Made by a program: the position numbers and the translations under genes. Positions 1,710 through 13,975 of a stretch of DNA of 15,615 bases are shown in pieces. The stretch lies in assembly GCA_026987995.1 (NCBI GenBank), contig JALSMC010000166.1:1-15615 (forward strand), given 5' to 3'. Source of the stretch: Sulfurimonas sp. (GTDB taxonomy: Bacteria > Campylobacterota > Campylobacteria > Campylobacterales > Sulfurimonadaceae). Below the pieces are notes generated by a model. The model saw nothing but the letters and a program-made list of their open reading frames with translations. It was not told the DNA's origin and ran no database searches. How positions within the stretch are numbered: position 1 is the first letter of the stretch; each line of letters opens with the position of its first letter.

Positions 1710-3962
1710 ATGAAAATATTTTTACCTCTCCTTTTATTACTTTTTACAACAAACATTTTTGCACAAACTCTTAACTCTATAAAATTTGAAGGAATGGTTC
1801 ATATATCAGAAACAGTTGCCCTTCGTATGCTCTCATTTGAAAAAGGTGATGATGTAGATATTAAAATGGTAGATGATGCTATAAAGAAGTATTTTAAACA
1901 GGGGTATTTCAATGATATCTGGGCTGAACTTGATGATGGTGACTTGACATTTTTCTTTAAAGAGAAGGCAATCATCTCAAAAATTGAGCTTGAAGGCTGG
2001 AAAGATAATGATGAAGAGGTTCAAGATGCTGTTATTCAGATTAAAAAAGGTTCTCTTTATGATGACAAAATCCTTCAAGATGCAAAAAAACGTATAATTG
2101 AAGCTATCTCTCAAGAGGGAAAACTTGACTCAGTAGTTGAGATTAAAACTGAGTACTTAGAAAACGGTAGTATAAAAGTTACTTTTGTTGTAAATGAAGG
2201 TGAAGAGATAATTATTGATAAGTTAGAATTTAGCGGTGTAAATGGTCTTGACCCTGATGATTTTGATGCAGTAATTGCAAATAAAGAACATGACTTTATG
2301 GGATGGTTTTGGGGTCAAAATGATGGGAAGATGAGTCTTGCGGATTTAGCCTATGACAACTTACGAATTCGCGACTTATATATGCAGTATGGTTACTTAG
2401 ATGCAAAAATAAACGAACCTTTTGTTCGTGTAAACTTTAACCACTACACGGCAGATATGAGCTATCAAATTAAAGAAGGTAATGTTTATACAATTGAAAA
2501 AATAACATTATCTCAAGCTAGAGAGGTTGTAGATGAAAAATTACTCCGAGATATTATTTCTTTAAAAGAGGGGGAAGTTTTCAATATTAAGTCTTTTCGT
2601 GAAGATGCAGAAAGAATAAAAACTCTGATTGCTGATAAAAGTTATGCATTTGTTCAAGTTGTCCCCGATTTGAAAAAAAATAAAGAGAAAAAAACCGTGG
2701 AAGTTGTTTTTAAAATCACTCCAGGTGATAGAGTTAAAATTAGAAATGTAGTTATCTCAGGAAATACACGAACACTCGATAGAATTATTAGACGTGAGCT
2801 TTATCTTGGGCCGGGTGATATGTACTCGCTTACAGATTTAAAAGATTCTCGTAACTCTTTAGGGCGTTTGGGTTACTTTGAAGGTACAACCATAGAAGAA
2901 AAACGTGTAAATAATCAAACAATGGACCTTGTTGTAAAGCTTAAAGAAGCACCAACTGGTAATGTACAACTTGGTGGTGGATATGGTTCTTTTGGTGGAC
3001 TTCTTGTAAGTATTGGTGTGAATGATAGAAACATTTGGGGTTCTGGAATCAATGTAGGTGTAAAAGCTGAAAAGTCACAAACAACAGAGTCTTATTCATT
3101 TAATGTTTCAAACAATAGACTAAACGATAGTGACTTTAGTGGAAACTTTTCTATTTATACCTCTACCTTTGATTATAACGATTATTCGGTCTCTTCAGAT
3201 GGTGCTAGTATTGGTGCGGGGCATAGGTTTTCTCGTTATGTTACAGGATACCTTGGATATGGCTTCTCGAGTAATGCTTATAAGTTTGATGATACTCTTG
3301 ACCTGAATGTAACAGATACTTTTTACTTTGAAGATTATACAAAAAGTGGTATAACTATTAGTGTTAAGTGGGATGATACAGATGATTTTTATCTTCCTCG
3401 TCAAGGTCTTGATATATCTCAAAGTTTTGAGAAAACTGGTCTAGGTGCACAAGCAAACTACATGAAGTCAAGAACAAGTTTTGGAAAGTATATGGGACTA
3501 GAAGAGTATATAGGATTTGATGCTATCTTTAGATACAAAGCTAGACTTAATGTCCTTATAAATAATGGCTATATTCCTTTAGCTGAAAAGTTTTATATGG
3601 GTGGTATTGGTAGTGTTAGAGGGTACCAAGCATTTTCCTTATCTCCAGTTATTACTGATGATGGTGGAGTTGTAAGAAGAATCGGTGGAGAGAAAACATT
3701 TTCAAACTCTATAGAGATGAGTATACCACTGATTCCTAAGGCTAAAATGCGTATGGTTGTGTTTTTAGACTGGGGATTTATTGGGGATGAGTCTATTACT
3801 GATATCTCACGTGGTGGTTACGGAGCAGGTCTAGAGTGGTTCTCTCCTGTTGGTCCGATTCAACTTATGTTCGCTTCACCACTAAATGTAAATGATGGTA
3901 ATACTCAAGGACAAGAAGATAAAGTTTCTAGCTTTGAGTTTACTATGGGACAAAGATTTTAA
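1710..3962 (+). CDS. bamA: BamA, outer-membrane protein assembly factor (Omp85)
   Basis: Core of the BAM complex, which folds beta-barrel proteins into the outer membrane. It has a clear Sec signal peptide (MKIFLPLLLLLFTTNIFAQ, cleavage likely around residue 18-19). About five POTRA repeats follow over roughly residues 20-420. POTRA-type strands such as ITPGDRVKIRNVVISGN are near 340-355. A C-terminal beta-barrel runs from about 420 to 750. The Omp85 signature VRGY is at 636-639 inside GSVRGYQAF. The last residues, FEFTMGQRF, form a C-terminal aromatic beta-signal. The 750 aa length is normal for the family. The ATG follows GGAAC at a good distance. The TAA at 3960-3962 overlaps the stop of the convergent Ppx/GppA gene. 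BamA is essential in Gram-negative bacteria. Confidence 0.97.
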   Translation: MKIFLPLLLLLFTTNIFAQTLNSIKFEGMVHISETVALRMLSFEKGDDVDIKMVDDAIKKYFKQGYFNDIWAELDDGDLTFFFKEKAIISKIELEGWKDNDEEVQDAVIQIKKGSLYDDKILQDAKKRIIEAISQEGKLDSVVEIKTEYLENGSIKVTFVVNEGEEIIIDKLEFSGVNGLDPDDFDAVIANKEHDFMGWFWGQNDGKMSLADLAYDNLRIRDLYMQYGYLDAKINEPFVRVNFNHYTADMSYQIKEGNVYTIEKITLSQAREVVDEKLLRDIISLKEGEVFNIKSFREDAERIKTLIADKSYAFVQVVPDLKKNKEKKTVEVVFKITPGDRVKIRNVVISGNTRTLDRIIRRELYLGPGDMYSLTDLKDSRNSLGRLGYFEGTTIEEKRVNNQTMDLVVKLKEAPTGNVQLGGGYGSFGGLLVSIGVNDRNIWGSGINVGVKAEKSQTTESYSFNVSNNRLNDSDFSGNFSIYTSTFDYNDYSVSSDGASIGAGHRFSRYVTGYLGYGFSSNAYKFDDTLDLNVTDTFYFEDYTKSGITISVKWDDTDDFYLPRQGLDISQSFEKTGLGAQANYMKSRTSFGKYMGLEEYIGFDAIFRYKARLNVLINNGYIPLAEKFYMGGIGSVRGYQAFSLSPVITDDGGVVRRIGGEKTFSNSIEMSIPLIPKAKMRMVVFLDWGFIGDESITDISRGGYGAGLEWFSPVGPIQLMFASPLNVNDGNTQGQEDKVSSFEFTMGQRF

Positions 3963-5431
3963 GAGTTAAAACTAATCTTAATTTTTTGTTCTAAAGGCTC
4001 TAACTTTTGTATAGCATCTTGTGCTAAATAGAGAGTTTTTTTACTTGATACTGATAACTTGTTCGTATCAAATGAAAGTGTAAAGTCTATATTTCTTGGT
4101 CTATGGCTTAACAAAGATATACTTAAAGAGAGAAGATAACTTAAAGACTGTGTTGTTTTTTCATCTGGTAGTAAAGTACTATACTTTTGTAGATGACTAC
4201 TTGCGGGGAGTTTATTTCCTGCATATTTACAAAGTGTAGCTATTAGAGTATTACTTTTATGTGTAAACCCATACTCTAAAGCATTTTGTATGAGATTATA
4301 GGCATGCTTATTTTGAGAATAAAAGTGTGTACTACTTCCGATAAGATATAGTTTCGCCGCTAGTGCTAACTCGTATCTATATTTTTTATCAAGCTCTAAA
4401 GACTCTGCTGTTAAATCAAAAAGTTTTTTATTCAATAGACTGAGTTGAGATGAAAGTCTTGTGTCGCCTATGTGAGCATCCAAAAGATACTTTACAGAGC
4501 AGTTATAGTTATGTGGAAACTTATGAGAGGCATTACGAAGTAGGTCTGCTAAAAAGACACCTTCTCTCACTCCAACACCACTTGTAACAATCTTTTTAAA
4601 TACTATCTTTTTAAGTAGTCTTTGTAAAATAAGTGTCCCTGGCTTTATCACATCATAACGATTAGCCTTAATATAAAGTGCCTTAAGTGCATTATCACTT
4701 GTAGAGGTAAGTATCTTGTCTGTAAACGCGGCTAATGTGTCACAGGAGTAAGTATAAGCATGTAGCTTGTTAAGTTGATATGATTCTTGCTTCATGATAG
4801 CACTAGAGAGTGCTCTAAAAGTACCACCAATTCCAATAAGGGTACTATAAGTAGAAGAGGGAAGTTTTTGGAGTTCTTTATCTATATGTTTTATAGCACC
4901 ATCTATATCATCAGAGTCAAAATAAAGCTCTTTAAGGCGTATAGTACCTAAATCTAATGATAAAGTGTTTGTCACACTACCATTGTCAATAGAGCTGAAC
5001 TCTGTGGAGCCACCACCAATATCTATGCTTAAAGCATCTGTCTGCTGTGGAAGAAGAGTAGCACACGCAAGGGCACCTAAATAAGCCTCTTTTTCTCCAC
5101 TAATTATCTTAATATTAATCCCAAGATTTTCTTTAACTCTTTTTAAAAAATCTTTTTTATTTGGAGCATCCCGAAGTGCTGATGTCGCAACACAGAGAAG
5201 TTTTTTTGTTTTAAATGATTGGGTGATTTGTATAAAATTATGAAGGGCATCAAATGTACGTTGCATTGGAAGAGTTTGAAGGTTTCCCTCAAATTTATAG
5301 GCATTTTCAGATAATCGAACTTTACTCTTTTCTTCATAAAGAAGATGAAAAGCATAACGAGATGTTCTTTCATAAACAGCCATTCTAATAGAATTAGAAC
5401 CTATGTCTATAATAGCGACTCTCTTTGCCAA
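3959..5431 (-). CDS. ppx: Ppx/GppA-family phosphatase (exopolyphosphatase / pppGpp phosphohydrolase), TTG start
   Basis: Actin-like ASKHA-fold enzyme that hydrolyses polyphosphate or pppGpp; sequence alone does not separate the two activities. Phosphate-binding loop 1 is DIGSNS at 9-14, loop 2 is DIGGGSTEF at 137-145, the acidic catalytic segment SGEKEA is at 111-116, and GVGVREG at 285-291 is the conserved end of the second lobe. The 490 aa length matches the long form with an added HD-like C-terminal domain, but where related proteins read LHDIG or LHEVG this one reads LYLIG (361-365), so the His-Asp pair is missing. The start is TTG at 5429-5431; its ribosome site AGAAGAG lies inside the end of the ferredoxin gene, whose stop is only 4 nt upstream, so the two are cotranscribed and probably translationally coupled. 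No ATG is available near the conserved N-terminus VAIIDIGSNS. Confidence 0.88.
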   Translation of the reverse strand: MAKRVAIIDIGSNSIRMAVYERTSRYAFHLLYEEKSKVRLSENAYKFEGNLQTLPMQRTFDALHNFIQITQSFKTKKLLCVATSALRDAPNKKDFLKRVKENLGINIKIISGEKEAYLGALACATLLPQQTDALSIDIGGGSTEFSSIDNGSVTNTLSLDLGTIRLKELYFDSDDIDGAIKHIDKELQKLPSSTYSTLIGIGGTFRALSSAIMKQESYQLNKLHAYTYSCDTLAAFTDKILTSTSDNALKALYIKANRYDVIKPGTLILQRLLKKIVFKKIVTSGVGVREGVFLADLLRNASHKFPHNYNCSVKYLLDAHIGDTRLSSQLSLLNKKLFDLTAESLELDKKYRYELALAAKLYLIGSSTHFYSQNKHAYNLIQNALEYGFTHKSNTLIATLCKYAGNKLPASSHLQKYSTLLPDEKTTQSLSYLLSLSISLLSHRPRNIDFTLSFDTNKLSVSSKKTLYLAQDAIQKLEPLEQKIKISFNS

Positions 5432-5435
5432 GACT

Positions 5436-5687
5436 TTACTCTTCTAGTTCTAAATTTTTTGCTTTAAACAAGAGTTCTGCGATAGACTCAACATTATCTT
5501 TATCAGGTACAAAACAGTCAACTGGACAGACTGAGATACATGCTGGTTCGTCATAAACACCTACACATTCTGTACAGCGATCTGGATCGACATAGTAGAT
5601 TGGGTCTCCCTCTTCAATAGCCAGAGTCGGACATTCTTCCCGACATGCATCACATGCTATACATTCGTCATTAATTAATAGAGCCAT
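5436..5687 (-). CDS. fdxB: 2[4Fe-4S] ferredoxin, Allochromatium/YfhL type
   Basis: Small electron carrier, 83 aa. Cluster ligands are C9, C12, C15 and C19-P for the first set, and C38, C41, C50 and C54-P for the second. The long eight-residue spacer between C41 and C50 (CTECVGVYDEPACISVCP) and the C-terminal helix after residue 60 are hallmarks of the Allochromatium vinosum (Alvin)-type ferredoxins, which have unusually low and unequal cluster potentials. The ninth cysteine C58 (VDC) is also typical. The ATG is preceded by AAGG at a good distance. It is followed directly by the Ppx/GppA gene. I recall the same ferredoxin-phosphatase pairing beside cosR in C. jejuni (fdxB, Cj0354c). Confidence 0.93.
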   Translation of the reverse strand: MALLINDECIACDACREECPTLAIEEGDPIYYVDPDRCTECVGVYDEPACISVCPVDCFVPDKDNVESIAELLFKAKNLELEE

Positions 5688-5736: not shown

Positions 5737-5773
5737 TAAATAAAGCTTCAGTAAGTTTTAAATACTTTATTTA
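5737..5773 (-). terminator. AT-rich inverted repeat at the kinase 3' end, possible weak terminator
   Basis: TAAATAAAG (5737-5745) and CTTTATTTA (5765-5773) are a perfect 9-bp inverted repeat with a 19-base loop, overlapping the stop codon of the histidine kinase. The stem is almost all A/T and has no clean T-tract, so it is a poor intrinsic terminator. It may instead be an RNA-processing site or chance. Confidence 0.3.
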
Positions 5774-7068
5774 TATCTAGGAATTATGCAAGATAGTTTA
5801 GAATTCAGTTGTAAAGAAGCAATTGTCCCATCAATTCCATCTTCTCTATTAGTTATTTTTATTTTTGCACCAAGAGCATCAGCTGCACTTTGTGCTAGAA
5901 AAAGACCAAGCCCAACACCTTGTCTATCTCCTTGTCTAACAAAAGGAGCAAAAAGATCAACACTATCATCAATCCCACATCCTTCATCTATAACTTCAAT
6001 AAGTAAACCATAATCATCTTGAGAACTTTGAAGAATTACCGTTTTGTCTTTTGGTGTAAATTTTAAGGCATTTTGTAAAAAGTTTTGAATAATTTGGTTA
6101 AGAAGACTCACTTGAAGCATCGCCATAAAAGCATTAGGTTCAAAACTCATCTCTAACTCTTTGCCTTCATTAGCAGCTAGTAGTTTAAAGTCATCCGCTT
6201 TTTGTTTTAAAATAGAGATAATATCAACTTGTGTTGGTTTCTCAAGCTGTGCACCCTCTTGTCGTCCAATATTTAAGATGTTTGAGACTATGACATTCAT
6301 CTCATCAATAGTTTTGTTTGTCTTCTTTAGGGCATCTATATACTCTTGGGGTGAGCGCTCTTTTATAAGTGTGACCTGATTTTTGAGCTTTATTACTGCA
6401 AGGGGAGTTTTTAACTCATGTGCAGTACCGATAAAGAGTTCTTTTTGGTACTTTACAAAGTTTTGGATACGTGCTATTAGGTGGTTAAGTATCTCTCCTA
6501 ATGGTTCAAATTCTTTAGGGAGAGAAGTTGTGTTTATAGGCTTCATGAGGTGTTCATTCATATTTGATAGTTTCGCACTAAGTTGTTTAATAGGTCTAAC
6601 AAGCATTTTGGATAAAGCTGTTGCATAGATAACTATGATTAGAAACCCAGCTATGTTAATAAGAAAAATATATTTAAGTATTTTATCTAAAAGGTATTTT
6701 GTGCTTGATATATCTTTTGTAATTTTAAGATAAGCATTGTTCTTGAGATTAAAAGGGTAAATAAGTGTGAGGTATGTACGGTTTTGTAATGTTCTTTCAT
6801 AGCCTGAAATATCAATATCTTCTTTTTTTAAATAAATTATCTCAATATTAAGAGAGAAGGAGTTTTCATTATACATTTCATCTTGTTGAAAAAGTGATTG
6901 ATTATTAGAAATATTTTTTGCATATTGTAGTAGTTCAGTATGTTTTTCATCATAAATGGACTTTTCAATAAAAAAGTATAAAATAGAAGAGAAGGCGAAT
7001 ATAAGAGCAAGAGTAGATATCATGAGTTGAATCAAAAAATCTTTACGGATACTGCGTTTGGAGAACAT
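5767..7068 (-). CDS. Membrane sensor histidine kinase, partner of the CosR-like regulator
   Basis: Two-component sensor of 433 aa in the inner membrane. A basic N-terminus leads into TM1 at about residues 13-34. A periplasmic sensing region of about 95 residues (36-131) follows, then TM2 at about 132-152 and a HAMP linker at about 155-208. The HisKA H-box FIGTAHELKTPLA carries the phospho-acceptor H217. The HATPase domain has an N-box with N329 and N333, a G1 box DEGCGI at 361-366, an F-box FAPFVR near 373, and a G2 box GVGLGL at 384-389. All catalytic signatures are intact. The ATG follows GAGG eight bases upstream. It lies 61 bp downstream of the regulator gene on the same strand, the standard regulator-then-kinase order. 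The periplasmic part resembles no sensor family I can name, so the signal is unknown. Confidence 0.93.
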   Translation of the reverse strand: MFSKRSIRKDFLIQLMISTLALIFAFSSILYFFIEKSIYDEKHTELLQYAKNISNNQSLFQQDEMYNENSFSLNIEIIYLKKEDIDISGYERTLQNRTYLTLIYPFNLKNNAYLKITKDISSTKYLLDKILKYIFLINIAGFLIIVIYATALSKMLVRPIKQLSAKLSNMNEHLMKPINTTSLPKEFEPLGEILNHLIARIQNFVKYQKELFIGTAHELKTPLAVIKLKNQVTLIKERSPQEYIDALKKTNKTIDEMNVIVSNILNIGRQEGAQLEKPTQVDIISILKQKADDFKLLAANEGKELEMSFEPNAFMAMLQVSLLNQIIQNFLQNALKFTPKDKTVILQSSQDDYGLLIEVIDEGCGIDDSVDLFAPFVRQGDRQGVGLGLFLAQSAADALGAKIKITNREDGIDGTIASLQLNSKLSCIIPRYK

Positions 7069-7077
7069 GAGTACAAC

Positions 7078-7098
7078 CTCAAATATTATAGATTTGAG
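7078..7098 (-). promoter_or_regulatory. Inverted repeat overlapping the kinase ribosome site, with embedded TATAAT
   Basis: CTCAAAT (7078-7084) and ATTTGAG (7092-7098) form a perfect 7-bp inverted repeat with a 7-base loop. In the minus-strand mRNA the second arm contains the GAG of the kinase Shine-Dalgarno GAGG, so a hairpin in a read-through transcript would mask it. The loop also contains TATAAT on the minus strand (7085-7090), and another TATAAT is at 7099-7104, so a separate kinase promoter with an overlapping operator is an alternative reading. Confidence 0.45.
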
Positions 7099-7129
7099 AT
7101 TATATCATTAAAATTTTAAAAGAGAAGGA

Positions 7130-7804
7130 TTAAGAGAGCTCTTTAGGGAAACAAAATCTATAACCACGACGACGTACAGTCTCGATAGTTGTAATTTGTA
7201 ATGGTTTGTCCATTTTTTGTCTAATCTGATTAATAGCAACTTCGATTACATTTGGAGTAACAAGTTCTGGCTCTTCCCAGATAGCGTCAAGAAGTTGTTC
7301 TTTTGAAACAATCTGATCACGGTGACGTGCAAGGTGAGTAAGAACTTCAAAAGGTTTACCTTTAAGCTCTATCTCTTGCTCTTTGTAAGTGATTTTTTCT
7401 TCTTCAGGGTTGATTGTTAAGTCTTCTATTTCGATGATGTTAGATCCACCAAAACGAAGTTTAGCTTCAATACGAGCGATAAGAACATCAAAGTCAAAAG
7501 GTTTTCTGATATAGTCATCAGCACCAGCACGAAGTGCTTCGATTTCACTTTCATTGTCATCTCTTGCAGAGATTACAATTACTGAAGTCTTGGGTGTGTT
7601 TGACTTAATGTCACCAATGATATCTACTGAGTTACCATCTGGTAACATCCAGTCCATAAGAACTAAATCGTAGTTACGAATGTCAAGATAGTACTCGCCA
7701 TCTTTAAGTGTCTCAACAACATCGCTTTGGTAACCAAACTCTTTGAGTCCCTCAGCAAGCATTTTGTTTAATGTAACTTCATCTTCAATAATAAGAATGC
7801 GCAT
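7130..7804 (-). CDS. cosR: OmpR-family response regulator, HsrA (HP1043)/CosR (Cj0355c) orthologue with intact Asp51
   Basis: DNA-binding response regulator, 224 aa. The receiver domain (1-115) has the acidic pocket E7/D8, phospho-acceptor D51, switch S79 and conserved K101-P. The winged-helix effector (about 122-221) includes segments that I recall as nearly identical to Helicobacter HsrA and Campylobacter CosR: GKPFEVLTHLARHRDQIVSK, then WEEPE, TPNVIEVAINQIRQKMDKPL and ETVRRRGYRFC. The stretch DGEYYLDIRNYDLV in the receiver is also typical of that family. In those pathogens the aspartate site is replaced and no kinase is known; here it is intact and a kinase gene follows. Known roles of the family are essential growth control and oxidative-stress regulation. 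AGGAAA precedes the ATG. Gene order around it matches cosR of C. jejuni as I remember it. Confidence 0.94.
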   Translation of the reverse strand: MRILIIEDEVTLNKMLAEGLKEFGYQSDVVETLKDGEYYLDIRNYDLVLMDWMLPDGNSVDIIGDIKSNTPKTSVIVISARDDNESEIEALRAGADDYIRKPFDFDVLIARIEAKLRFGGSNIIEIEDLTINPEEEKITYKEQEIELKGKPFEVLTHLARHRDQIVSKEQLLDAIWEEPELVTPNVIEVAINQIRQKMDKPLQITTIETVRRRGYRFCFPKELS

Positions 7805-7837: not shown

Positions 7838-7866
7838 ATTATAGCGTAGTTTTAGGTTAACTTAAA
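7838..7866 (-). promoter_or_regulatory. Regulator promoter: TATAAT -10 with TTTAAG-N5-CTAAAA at -35, possible autoregulatory box
   Basis: On the minus strand TATAAT (7838-7843) lies 17 bases downstream of TTTAAG (7861-7866). TTTAAG is followed after 5 bases by CTAAAA (7850-7855). As I recall, the HP1043 site is a tandem TTTAAG-N5-TTTAAG overlapping -35 elements, including its own promoter; here the first half is perfect and the second partial. The leader to the ATG is about 25-28 nt. Confidence 0.5.
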
Positions 7867-7905
7867 GTTTTTTTCAATTTTCTTTAAAAAAAAATGAAGT
7901 TTGGA

Positions 7906-8235
7906 TTAAGAATTGAAATCTTTAAAGAGGCTGACACTTACTTTACAGTCGGGGAGTATCGATGGTTTTGTGATTTTTAGTTCAAGAGTATTTATCTTGT
8001 TAAATTCTTTTTTTAGAAAATCCCGTAAATAAAGCAGGGCATCCTCAATAAGTAAAAACTTTTGAGTCTGCATACTGTTTTTTATAAGAGCACTTACATC
8101 GGCATAATTAATAAATTCATCTTGATAGTTGTAGTCTAGTGTAAGGTTTATGATTACATCTTGCTCTGCAGTACGTTCAAAGTCTAAAATCCCAATAATA
8201 GTCTGAAATTTTAAATCTTCAATTTGAACTTTCAT
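7906..8235 (-). CDS. folB: Dihydroneopterin aldolase (FolB), folate biosynthesis
   Basis: Converts 7,8-dihydroneopterin to 6-hydroxymethyl-dihydropterin plus glycolaldehyde. At 109 aa it is slightly shorter than typical enzymes (about 120). Family signatures are IGILDFERTAEQ at 14-25 with pterin-contacting E24, YADV at 44-47, E64 in the conserved LIED segment, and the catalytic lysine K90 in LKITKP. The ATG (8233-8235) shares one base with the plsY stop (TAATG), so the two genes are translationally coupled. About 100 bp separate it from the regulator gene downstream. Confidence 0.91.
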   Translation of the reverse strand: MKVQIEDLKFQTIIGILDFERTAEQDVIINLTLDYNYQDEFINYADVSALIKNSMQTQKFLLIEDALLYLRDFLKKEFNKINTLELKITKPSILPDCKVSVSLFKDFNS

Positions 8236-8852
8236 TAAACGACGGCTTTTTCTTGACCACTAAAAAGACGGATAATATTTGGTATATGTTTATAGTAAAG
8301 GATAAATACTATAAAAACTACAGGTGCATGTGCCATATCAGGGTGAATAAAAAAGCTAGAGATTAAAAGAACTAAAACACCTGTAAGTGAAGAAACAGAA
8401 GATATCTTAATTGTTTTTGCTAAAACACCCCAAACTACTAAAGCGATAAGTGTCTCTTGTGGTAGCATAAACATCATCACACCCATACCCGTTGCTATTC
8501 CCTTGCCACCTTCAAGTCCTAAGTAAGGAGAGAAACAGTGACCAATGACTGCTAAAACACCAACTGCCCAAAGAGTAGACTCACTCATTCCCATAAAATA
8601 AGCTAGAGTTAAAACAACAACACCTTTGAGTGCATCAAGAGCCAGTGTCGCGATACCGAGTTTTTTTGCAAGACTAGGGTTTGTCTCTTTAACAACTCTC
8701 AGTACATTCGTCGCACCTATACTACCACTACCACTCGCTTTAATATTTACACCAGCAAACTGTTTTGCTAAAAGTAGACCAAAGGGAATACCACCCACTA
8801 AATAAGCAGCTATAAAAAACTGTACATTTGTATTAAATAAAAAATCCATCAT
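8235..8852 (-). CDS. plsY: Glycerol-3-phosphate acyltransferase PlsY
   Basis: Inner-membrane enzyme that moves the acyl group from acyl-phosphate to glycerol-3-phosphate, the first committed step of phospholipid synthesis. About five to seven hydrophobic segments are visible. The three PlsY motifs are present: GSGSIGATNVLR at 41-52, EGGKGIATGMG at 114-124, and the KHIPNIIRLFSGQE region at 188-201. The length of 205 aa is normal. Two ATGs are adjacent (8852 and 8849); AAGG is only 3 bases from the first but 6 from the second, so translation may begin at the second, giving 204 aa. It is first in the minus-strand block, divergent from nadA. Confidence 0.96.
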   Translation of the reverse strand: MMDFLFNTNVQFFIAAYLVGGIPFGLLLAKQFAGVNIKASGSGSIGATNVLRVVKETNPSLAKKLGIATLALDALKGVVVLTLAYFMGMSESTLWAVGVLAVIGHCFSPYLGLEGGKGIATGMGVMMFMLPQETLIALVVWGVLAKTIKISSVSSLTGVLVLLISSFFIHPDMAHAPVVFIVFILYYKHIPNIIRLFSGQEKAVV

Positions 8853-11880: not shown

Positions 11881-12921
11881 TTGAAGGGTGTATCATTATT
11901 TGCAAATGTCGGAATTGCAGAAACATATATTAAAAAACATAAGATTGATATTGTAGTTGCAAATGAGCTTTTAGATAATAGAGCACGGTTTCATCAAGAA
12001 ATGCACTCAAAGTGTCAAATGATTCAAGGTGATATCACTAATGATGATGTTTTTAACGAAGTTTTAACTACTGCAAAAAAGAAGAAATGTGACTTTCTCA
12101 TCGCTACACCACCATGTCAAGGAATGAGTCTTGCAGGTAAGATGCAAGAAAATGATCCTCGAAACTCTCTTATAAAATATGTGATAAAATTAGCAACTGA
12201 GTTACAGCCAACTAATATTCTTATAGAAAATGTACCAAAAGTTTTAAAAACATACCTTGTTCATAATGGCAATAAAATTAAGATAACGGATTATATAAAA
12301 CAAGAATTAGAACCACTCGGTTACATAATAAACCCTGTTGTGGTTGATGCTTCAGACTATGGAACGCCTCAGAGCCGAAAACGTGCTATTTATCTAATAT
12401 CTAAATTGTCCAAATGGGAACTCCCAACAAAACAAGATAAAATAACAGTGAGAGAGATGATAGAACATCTTCCAAGTTTAGAGAGTGGAGAGACATCATC
12501 AGTTGCATTTCATAAGGCTAAAGTACATAACGACAGACATATTTCTTTTTTAAAGCAAACGCCAACAGGAAAAACAGCTCTGCACAATCCTATTCATTAT
12601 CCCAAAAAGCAAGATGGTACCAGGATTAAAGGCTATGACACTACATATAAACGTATAGAGTGGGATAAACCAGCACCAACGATAACTATGGCAAATGGTT
12701 CAGTATCAAGTCAAAATAATGTCCATCCAGGACGACTTAAAGATGATGGGACATACAGCGATGCTCGGGTTTTAACACTTAAAGAAATATTTATATTAAC
12801 TGGACTACCTGATAGTTGGTCACCACCAGAGTGGGCAAGCGAGAACCTTATAAGACAAGTGATAGGAGAAGGAGTTCCCCCTAAGTTAATAGACCAACTT
12901 CTATCAACTATACCTAAATAA
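11881..12921 (+). CDS. C5-cytosine DNA methyltransferase of a type II restriction-modification system, TTG start
   Basis: Transfers a methyl group from S-adenosylmethionine to C5 of a cytosine in a specific site, protecting host DNA. Motif I is SLFANVGIAE (5-14), where FANVG replaces the usual FAGxGG. Motif IV TPPCQG (76-81) has catalytic C79, motif VI is ENV (116-118), and motif VIII is QSRKR (164-168). The variable target-recognition region lies roughly at 175-290. Motif IX is around RVLTLKE (296-302) and motif X is IGEGVPPKL (328-336). The order I-IV-VI-VIII-TRD-IX-X is canonical. The TTG start at 11881 is supported by AGGAA six bases upstream and because motif I begins at residue 4-5. The nuclease gene starts one base after its stop. 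The recognition sequence cannot be read from the protein. Confidence 0.96.
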   Translation: MKGVSLFANVGIAETYIKKHKIDIVVANELLDNRARFHQEMHSKCQMIQGDITNDDVFNEVLTTAKKKKCDFLIATPPCQGMSLAGKMQENDPRNSLIKYVIKLATELQPTNILIENVPKVLKTYLVHNGNKIKITDYIKQELEPLGYIINPVVVDASDYGTPQSRKRAIYLISKLSKWELPTKQDKITVREMIEHLPSLESGETSSVAFHKAKVHNDRHISFLKQTPTGKTALHNPIHYPKKQDGTRIKGYDTTYKRIEWDKPAPTITMANGSVSSQNNVHPGRLKDDGTYSDARVLTLKEIFILTGLPDSWSPPEWASENLIRQVIGEGVPPKLIDQLLSTIPK

Positions 12922-12922
12922 G

Positions 12923-13975
12923 ATGGAAAATAAAAAGAATTTTTGGCAAGCTCCAGGAAATGGCAAAGGTTTTGACTCATTTTTAGGCGATAATTCAAAA
13001 ATGAATAATAGAACTATTGGAATACTCTCATATATTAAAGAAAAATCAATTAGTGATGGTTATGTCTCAGAAGGTAAGTATAAAGAAGAGATTTTGCAGT
13101 ACTTAGTAAATCATTTTAATGCAGATGAAAATGATAGCCTTAAAACACACTTCTACAAGCCTGCACTTTTCTATGGGTTTATTCATAGAAACAAAAACCA
13201 TGATTTGTCATTGAGTATAGAAGGTAATCTATTTCTAAACTATTATAATCAAGAGAACTATACAGAGTGTCTTAAACTTGTTATTAACCAACTTGATAAC
13301 ACTACTTATCCAAACTCTGCGACAGAGAAAGTGCAAAATTTAAAGTTATTTCCATTTAGAATTTTATTTAAGTTACTATTGGAAAATAAAAGTATTTCTT
13401 CTAAGTTTATTAGCGAAAACTTAGTTCATATAACTGACTACCATGATGTTTTGGAGTATGAAAAAGATAAAAATATTCATGCAATAAAGAAATTTGAAAC
13501 TGCCTCAACAAAATTTCAAAAATTTAATACTTGGGTTGTAAACTCTTTAGTAGATTTAAATATTTTAAAATTATGCGCTACTAAATTATCAATAAGCGAT
13601 GAAATGCTTGAACATATGAAAGTTTTATATGCAAAGGCAAGTTTTAGTGATATGTTTTTTACTGCAACAATATGTGAAGTTAATAATAGTATTGCTGAAA
13701 AACGAGTAAAAAGAGATCAATCTTTGATTGTTGATGCAAAACAGAGGGACAAATTTCTCTGTTGTGTAGATCATGCACATAATACATTCATATCAAAAGG
13801 TGTTAATTATGTTGAAGGTCATCATGTAATACCAATGTTTCAACAGAAAAACTATAATTTTCCACTTGATGATGTAAACAATATAGTTTCATTGTGTCCA
13901 AATTGTCATAGAGAGATACATTCTGCAGATAATAAAATAGATATTTTAAATAAGCTGTATAAATTAAATATATAG
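12923..13975 (+). CDS. HNH-type restriction endonuclease, partner of the C5 methyltransferase
   Basis: Predicted cleavage of unmethylated DNA at the site protected by the upstream methyltransferase. The C-terminal HNH domain (about 270-340) has the active-site His pair in GHHVIP (299-304; H300/H301), Asn319/N320 in VNNIVSLCPNCHREIH, and H329/H333. C280 or C281 with C325 and C328 may bind structural zinc. Residues 1-260 hold no motif that I can assign firmly. The segment about 78-170 (KPALFYGFI, then LSLSIEGN, YPNSA and PFRILFKLLLENKSIS) recalls the N-terminal winged-helix recognition part of AlwI-like restriction enzymes; that is inference. The ATG comes one base after the methyltransferase TAA and has no strong ribosome site, so translation is probably coupled, which would keep nuclease levels below methylase levels. 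Confidence 0.87.
   Translation: MENKKNFWQAPGNGKGFDSFLGDNSKMNNRTIGILSYIKEKSISDGYVSEGKYKEEILQYLVNHFNADENDSLKTHFYKPALFYGFIHRNKNHDLSLSIEGNLFLNYYNQENYTECLKLVINQLDNTTYPNSATEKVQNLKLFPFRILFKLLLENKSISSKFISENLVHITDYHDVLEYEKDKNIHAIKKFETASTKFQKFNTWVVNSLVDLNILKLCATKLSISDEMLEHMKVLYAKASFSDMFFTATICEVNNSIAEKRVKRDQSLIVDAKQRDKFLCCVDHAHNTFISKGVNYVEGHHVIPMFQQKNYNFPLDDVNNIVSLCPNCHREIHSADNKIDILNKLYKLNI

Follow-up and report, generated by a model that had tools for sequence, protein, structure and literature searches.

A CosR–CosS pair in Sulfurimonas and the probable repeated loss of the CosS kinase in Campylobacterota

Introduction

HsrA of Helicobacter pylori and CosR of Campylobacter jejuni are essential regulators and proposed drug targets (PMC9449129), and the means by which CosR is regulated in the absence of a kinase is described as unknown (PMC10936212). 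A stretch of Sulfurimonas sp. DNA of 15,615 nucleotides (the window, by which we mean the whole stretch analysed) carries a regulator with a closely similar DNA-binding half, an intact phosphorylation pocket and an adjoining histidine kinase, which raises the question of whether the orphan form of this regulator descends from a phosphorylation-controlled one and, if so, how the kinase and the acceptor aspartate (D51) were lost.

The kinase was named CosS by Hwang et al. (2014), in whose study CosS-to-CosR phosphotransfer was demonstrated in C. fetus, cosS was found together with D51 in non-thermotolerant Campylobacter, and cosS homologs were noted in Wolinella, Arcobacter, Sulfurospirillum and H. 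pullorum; both cosS and D51 were absent from thermotolerant Campylobacter, as was cosS from H. pylori (PMC3938529). The main points are repeated in the C. jejuni CosR structure paper (PMC10936212). The original prediction for our locus described the regulator of Helicobacter and Campylobacter as lacking both aspartate and kinase, which agrees with the thermotolerant campylobacters and, for the kinase, with H. pylori, but does not extend to the whole groups, given cosS in non-thermotolerant Campylobacter and H. pullorum. An intact pair can be ruled out as an unreported arrangement, having been described in that study, and the window pair is one more intact CosRS, ordinary as a window finding and not new in kind. 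In the open-access literature we came across no account of CosRS in Sulfurimonas and none of its disappearance from Sulfurovum, so the comparative results are not certain to be new. The passages of PMC9449129 that bear on CosR and Sulfurimonas bring in the latter only when comparing numbers of two-component systems, and CosR does not appear in the passages of PMC9239204, which deals with how signalling evolved in the phylum.

Identity of the regulator

The regulator gene (7130..7804, minus strand) encodes a 224-aa OmpR-type protein in which the Response_reg and Trans_reg_C profiles both score above their cut-offs. Its best sequence matches in the PDB were 8uvx (E 1.6e-109), 8uuz (5.5e-109) and 2hqr (1.7e-86), entries titled only 'DNA-binding response regulator' and 'Putative transcriptional regulator' that we take to be CosR of C. 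jejuni (8uvx, 8uuz) and HP1043 of H. pylori (2hqr). Their effector halves are nearly identical to that of the window regulator, which bears out the resemblance given in the original prediction.

Regulators matching at E ≤ 1e-60 occurred in 396 of 397 genomes of the phylum, all of the same order or closer, and in the remaining genome (G173) the regulator is present, split over two frames. Whole family members scored at least 199.7 bits, the two G173 pieces 183 and 169, and the next paralogs at most 157.9. In the regulator tree the family stood apart from seven paralogs of the window's own genome with support 100, many inner branches being weak; a position outside the HsrA/CosR clade was not seen, and synteny agrees. 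Judged by its sequence, the window regulator is a CosR/HsrA (HP1043) ortholog, combining an OmpR-type receiver with the family's effector domain and grouping with HP1043 and CosR.

The DNA-binding half of HP1043/HsrA of H. pylori is nearly identical to the window's, and a TTTAAG-type repeat likewise lies at its own promoter (PMC5253667), but the four residues 51-54 are missing, the acidic pocket is altered and no kinase is reported. A basic residue at acidic position 8 is known in other Asp-less receivers, including HP1043 (PMC4395418). CosR of C. jejuni shares the window's effector domain but has D51 replaced and lacks CosS. The residue-51 string of 8uvx and 8uuz recurs in some members of our group g15, which we infer to be C. 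jejuni-type Campylobacter, and that of 2hqr in some members of g19; g15 genomes mostly have the window's gene order minus the kinase (15 of 20 in full). The putative identities of g15, g19, g8 and f5 are our reading of PDB sequence matches, the literature and reverse gyrase.

The kinase and its neighbourhood

A complete histidine kinase had been predicted 61 bp downstream of the regulator on the same strand, and this was confirmed. The kinase ORF (5767..7068, minus strand, 433 aa) is separated from the regulator ORF by 7069-7129, its HisKA and HATPase_c profiles score above their cut-offs, and all catalytic boxes are present (HELKTPL with H217, then the N, G1, F and G2 boxes QNFLQNALKF, DEGCGI, DLFAPF and GVGLGLFLAQ). 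The pocket of the regulator proved equally intact, with E7, D8, D51, S79 and K101 all in the sequence. Having both D51 and a kinase, the locus falls outside the orphan, atypical HsrA-like class (no phospho-Asp, no cognate kinase); with a cosS ortholog adjoining cosR and a phosphorylatable receiver, it belongs to the CosRS class.

Two long helices predicted in the kinase (residues 7-55 and 121-168) are taken to contain membrane helices, and between them lies a small, strand-rich sensor, modelled as four strands with middling confidence (pLDDT 69.5, pTM 0.42). We did not name this sensor by its fold, given these scores and given that the best 50 of 741 Foldseek matches were kinases or kinase-containing entries, uninformative on the sensor. 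A HAMP-like linker was recognised through a PDB profile match, the Pfam HAMP profile giving no match. Searched with the kinase profile, the window's own genome returned a sole match at E ≤ 1e-35, the window kinase itself (611 bits). Among 28 aligned of the 43 named kinases found, the nearest were titled Sulfurimonas (81-90% identical) and those titled Sulfuricurvum were 59-62% identical; the aligned kinases of other families were 32-50% identical to the window's. The window kinase scored 61 bits against the ArsS family sensor kinase model (NF038389), short of the curated cut-off of 250 for membership. None of the 25 best NCBIfam models listed reached its cut-off for either CosR or CosS, so automatic annotation probably names both only generically.

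The pair is embedded in a conserved gene order, all on the minus strand: PlsY (8235..8852) and FolB (7906..8235) lie upstream, and a YfhL-family ferredoxin (5436..5687, 79 bp from the kinase) and a Ppx/GppA phosphatase (3959..5431) downstream. This order, PlsY-FolB-cosR-(cosS)-ferredoxin-Ppx, is common to most families except the Helicobacter-like f2 and the Arcobacter-like f7, and the window has the PlsY-FolB-cosR-fdx-ppx neighbourhood of the CosR/HsrA family. The CosRS of C. fetus and other non-thermotolerant campylobacters likewise has cosS downstream of cosR, D51 and a highly conserved DNA-binding domain (PMC3938529), and kinase-bearing genomes of the Campylobacter-like f3, in which C. fetus itself is not named, have the window's neighbours; that system differs in belonging to another family, the window's being Sulfurimonas-like with phosphotransfer predicted from sequence. 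HPMG439/HPMG440 of H. pullorum (Bauer et al. 2013, as cited in PMC5385324 and PMC3938529) also joins an HP1043-family regulator to a cognate histidine kinase, but a role in nitrogen metabolism is reported for that pair. In genome G133 (contig C23, ~199300-202800), about 3.5 kb containing an opposite-strand ORF, GGDEF-like by eye, lies between cosR and cosS; wherever else one stretch carries both genes, no more than 429 bp separates the ORFs.

Distribution of the kinase and the phosphorylation pocket

Our table of the cosR locus comprises 205 of the 397 genomes; they were picked to represent all 13 families and all 68 genera and are not a random draw. The kinase was present in 112 (adjacent in 110, elsewhere in the genome in G133 and G349), and every one of the 112 keeps E7/D8, D51, S79 and K101. 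Two of these kinases are incomplete as read, one cut by a contig end (L189) and one in two pieces (L159, from G008); the latter, like the cosR of G173 (L136), which lies in two frames with a stop, reflects either sequencing error or real decay. By simple patterns, the H box was found in 107 of the 108 kinase ORFs of at least 380 aa (of 111 ORFs), the 108th reading HEMKTPL, and the N, G1, G2 and F boxes in 105, 105, 99 and 98 of the 108.

Among the 93 kinase-less genomes, D51 was lost in 76 and kept in 17, position 51 being S in 22, N in 22, G in 19, D in 17, deleted in 5, A in 3, E in 3, H in 1 and K in 1. Absence rests on genome-wide searches in 59 of the 93 and on the neighbourhood in the other 34. 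Where no kinase adjoins cosR, a genome-wide profile search found no ortholog in 63 of 65 genomes; it recovered the kinase in all five kinase-bearing controls, and orthologs scored 383-626 bits and the next matches 131-158. The 17 genomes that keep D51 belong to g35 (5), g34 (2), g55 (2) and f5 (8). Nine of them, all of g34, g35 and g55, retain the whole pocket and might be phosphorylated by another kinase.

Kinase and D51 were jointly absent in all 20 genomes of g15, in 46 of the 53 kinase-less genomes of the Helicobacter-like f2 and in all 10 of g50 (Sulfurovum). Named loci, taken as the best 80 of 516 relatives and including some of the genomes already in the table of 205, extend this pattern: the pocket is intact in 43 of 43 with a kinase, and position 51 in the 37 without one is G, S or A in 33, D in 3 and truncated in 1. 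Of these 37, 32 are titled Sulfurovum; L224 has only 199 bp of downstream sequence, and L220 comes from a tubeworm record. In the regulator tree a branch with support 99 sets the 37 apart from the other loci. Some loci titled Sulfurovum carry a kinase and fall on the other side, and such titles are therefore loose.

Order of loss and decay of the receiver

Our species tree was built from rpoB alone for 59 genomes by a quick method, rooted on f5, with no bootstrap and several open forks; no rpoB match was found in the window's genome, which is not in the tree. Parsimony on this tree gives seven changes in kinase presence and five in D51. The kinase changes fall in Sulfurovum, g15, g55, g34, the main Helicobacter-like group, G034 (in g8, where the kinase is otherwise present) and the split between f5 and the rest. 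If the kinase was never regained, the first six count as losses, and the f5 split may be a loss or a gain. For D51, losses fall in most of the main Helicobacter-like group, Sulfurovum, g15 and G034; a count of five calls for a regain in g35, the alternative being a larger number of losses. An independent-pairs test of kinase against D51 on the same tree gave three to four agreeing pairs, none opposing and two to three without difference (p 0.125-0.25, not significant). The rpoB open frames were 2600-2917 aa in all 25 f2 genomes (L301-L324, L326) and 1377-1413 aa in all 34 others matched; an RpoB-RpoC fusion is expected in Helicobacter and Wolinella and fits the long f2 frames.

Kinase loss most likely preceded Asp loss, because D51 is invariant where the kinase is present (112/112) and persists in some genomes where it is absent (17/93, nine with the whole pocket); these counts contradict the original proposal that kinase and Asp were lost together. 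Three named Sulfurovum loci (L231, L235, L237) have D51 and no kinase inside clades with G51, so D51 can apparently come back. We rejected them as a step between the two losses, since within those clades, and with the normal loop after residue 51 missing, a reversal is as likely.

Receiver and effector were compared by mean pairwise identity with one genome per genus (50 kinase-bearing genera against 15 kinase-less ones, f5 left out). The effector was nearly as conserved with the kinase as without it (87.7% vs 86.8%), whereas identity fell from 73.5% to 50.8% in the receiver and from 72.9% to 30.4% in alpha-1, the usual kinase-docking helix of receivers. It is the output side, effector domain and promoter repeat alike, that is kept, and the input side that decays. 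The spacers between cosR and the ferredoxin gene in kinase-less g15 (100-365 bp, 16 measured), g50 (83-184 bp, 10 measured) and g55 (150 and 370 bp), with gene starts estimated as the first fitting Met, fit a clean kinase deletion; the spacers around the window kinase add up to 140 bp (61 + 79).

A candidate CosR site in the cosR promoter

The HP1043 repeat, TTTAAG-N5-TTTAAG, is a motif from H. pylori (PMC5253667). In the window, a candidate CosR site in the cosR promoter (7851..7877) consists of two overlapping repeats of this type, at 7861-7877 on the minus strand and 7851-7867 on the plus strand, with two mismatches each. Such matches are not above chance within the window (7 found, 8.3 expected), and the site draws its support from other genomes, in which a repeat of this kind is conserved ahead of cosR. 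Searching the 150 bp before cosR with at most two mismatches, and with dinucleotide shuffles as control, we found the repeat in 104 of 111 kinase-bearing genomes vs 20.1 in shuffles and in 80 of 93 kinase-less genomes vs 17.3, the genomes counted being related and one kinase-bearing genome of the 205, with <100 bp upstream, being left out. With one genome per genus, the repeat preceded cosR in 47 of 50 kinase-bearing and 15 of 19 kinase-less genera. A spacer of 5 gave the peak, spacers of 4 and 6 being raised less (77 and 80 of 111; 48 and 47 of 93), and six control words occurred in 16 to 54 of 204. CosR likely controls itself via the candidate repeat. We set aside promoter-like and terminator-like patterns in the window, of which there were 16 vs 14.2 expected and 1 vs 1.7.

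Function of the pair and origin of the orphan regulators

The reading that we hold with considerable confidence is that the window genes are CosR and CosS of the known CosRS system, working by phosphotransfer and repeat control, and that the kinase was lost repeatedly elsewhere, with decay following. CosS is predicted to autophosphorylate at H217 and would pass the phosphate to D51 of CosR, as expected from the sequence and from the precedent in C. fetus (PMC3938529). Phospho-CosR would then act on presumed target genes via direct repeats of the TTTAAG type, of which its own promoter likely carries one, so that CosS would modulate an essential DNA-binding regulator. After loss of the kinase, D51, the pocket and the docking helix may have decayed in several lineages while the DNA-binding half and promoter repeat stayed, likely because the essential output of CosR does not depend on phosphate. 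In C. fetus, a cosS knockout was obtained and had little phenotype, a cosR knockout was not obtainable, and binding of the C. fetus CosR to promoters that CosR targets in C. jejuni was very weak (PMC3938529); given that weak binding and the mild knockout, a shared output is not proven.

For the history of the system we favour, with some reserve, a series in which six lineages (by parsimony), in and outside hosts, lost the kinase, always before the Asp, and four of them then lost the Asp and docking helix, the DNA-binding half and CosR's own promoter site remaining fixed. If this is true, the essential job of CosR/HsrA was never phosphate-dependent and the kinase is a removable modulator.

The alternative that fares best is that the oldest CosR had no kinase at its locus and acquired one only after the Nautiliaceae had branched off, which we consider a real if lesser possibility. 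It turns on f5. Reverse gyrase scored above cut-off in all nine f5 genomes searched and in none of seven others, and since Nautilia profundicola has this enzyme, we infer that f5 is Nautiliaceae. None of the eight tabulated f5 genomes has a kinase beside cosR or an ortholog-level match elsewhere, and the regulator and ferredoxin genes are 1-2 bp apart in all eight, as against the longer g50 and g15 spacers (starts estimated in each case), and nothing in the sequence hints that this locus once carried a kinase. However, CosR in all eight keeps D51, S79 and K101 with K or R at position 8 (one also lacks E7), and so looks like a decayed phosphorylatable receiver. Outside the Nautiliaceae-like family, the predicted phosphorylation-controlled ancestor survives as the probable older state of every family; the term 'phosphorelay' should give way to simple two-component phosphotransfer.

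Joint loss of kinase and Asp as an adaptation to host life, which the original prediction had proposed, is improbable. The joint absences in g15 and among kinase-less f2 genomes are what it would lead one to expect, but the same absence recurs in Sulfurovum (all of g50, and 33 of the 37 kinase-less named loci among the best 80 of 516 relatives, most of the 37 being titled Sulfurovum), a mainly free-living genus, even if L220 comes from a tubeworm. The kinase is also absent throughout f5, the group carrying reverse gyrase, and nine kinase-less genomes keep the whole pocket; moreover, cosS is present in H. pullorum, and C. fetus retains it together with D51 (PMC3938529). Host association is thus already contradicted as a general rule and, given the mainly free-living Sulfurovum, is unlikely to be the whole reason for the loss, though it could be one contributing cause. 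That the adjacent kinase serves another regulator, CosR being phosphate-independent even in the window organism, would suit the dispensability of cosS but not cosR in C. fetus, and is very unlikely against the pocket conserved in all kinase-bearing genomes, the poorer conservation of alpha-1 without the kinase and the phosphotransfer demonstrated in C. fetus (PMC3938529).

Our comparative table indicates that kinase-less CosR arose repeatedly, also outside hosts. The evolutionary picture is thereby corrected and broadened: the kinase was lost several times, most likely ahead of the Asp and not in hosts alone. Matched relatives with and without the kinase (other Sulfurovaceae and Sulfurovum) make CosR control in the absence of a kinase addressable in non-pathogens.

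L100, L102, L104, L106 (f6) and L108 (G249) carry a second CosR-like regulator that has diverged (48-61% identity to the window's). It has D51, but its acidic pocket is broken and no CosS ortholog adjoins it (L100, L102 and L104 have <0.9 kb of downstream sequence); these proteins group with f5 in the tree, possibly through long-branch attraction. Elsewhere in the window (11881-13975), a C5 cytosine DNA methylase is directly followed by an HNH-domain protein, the two probably forming a restriction-modification pair.
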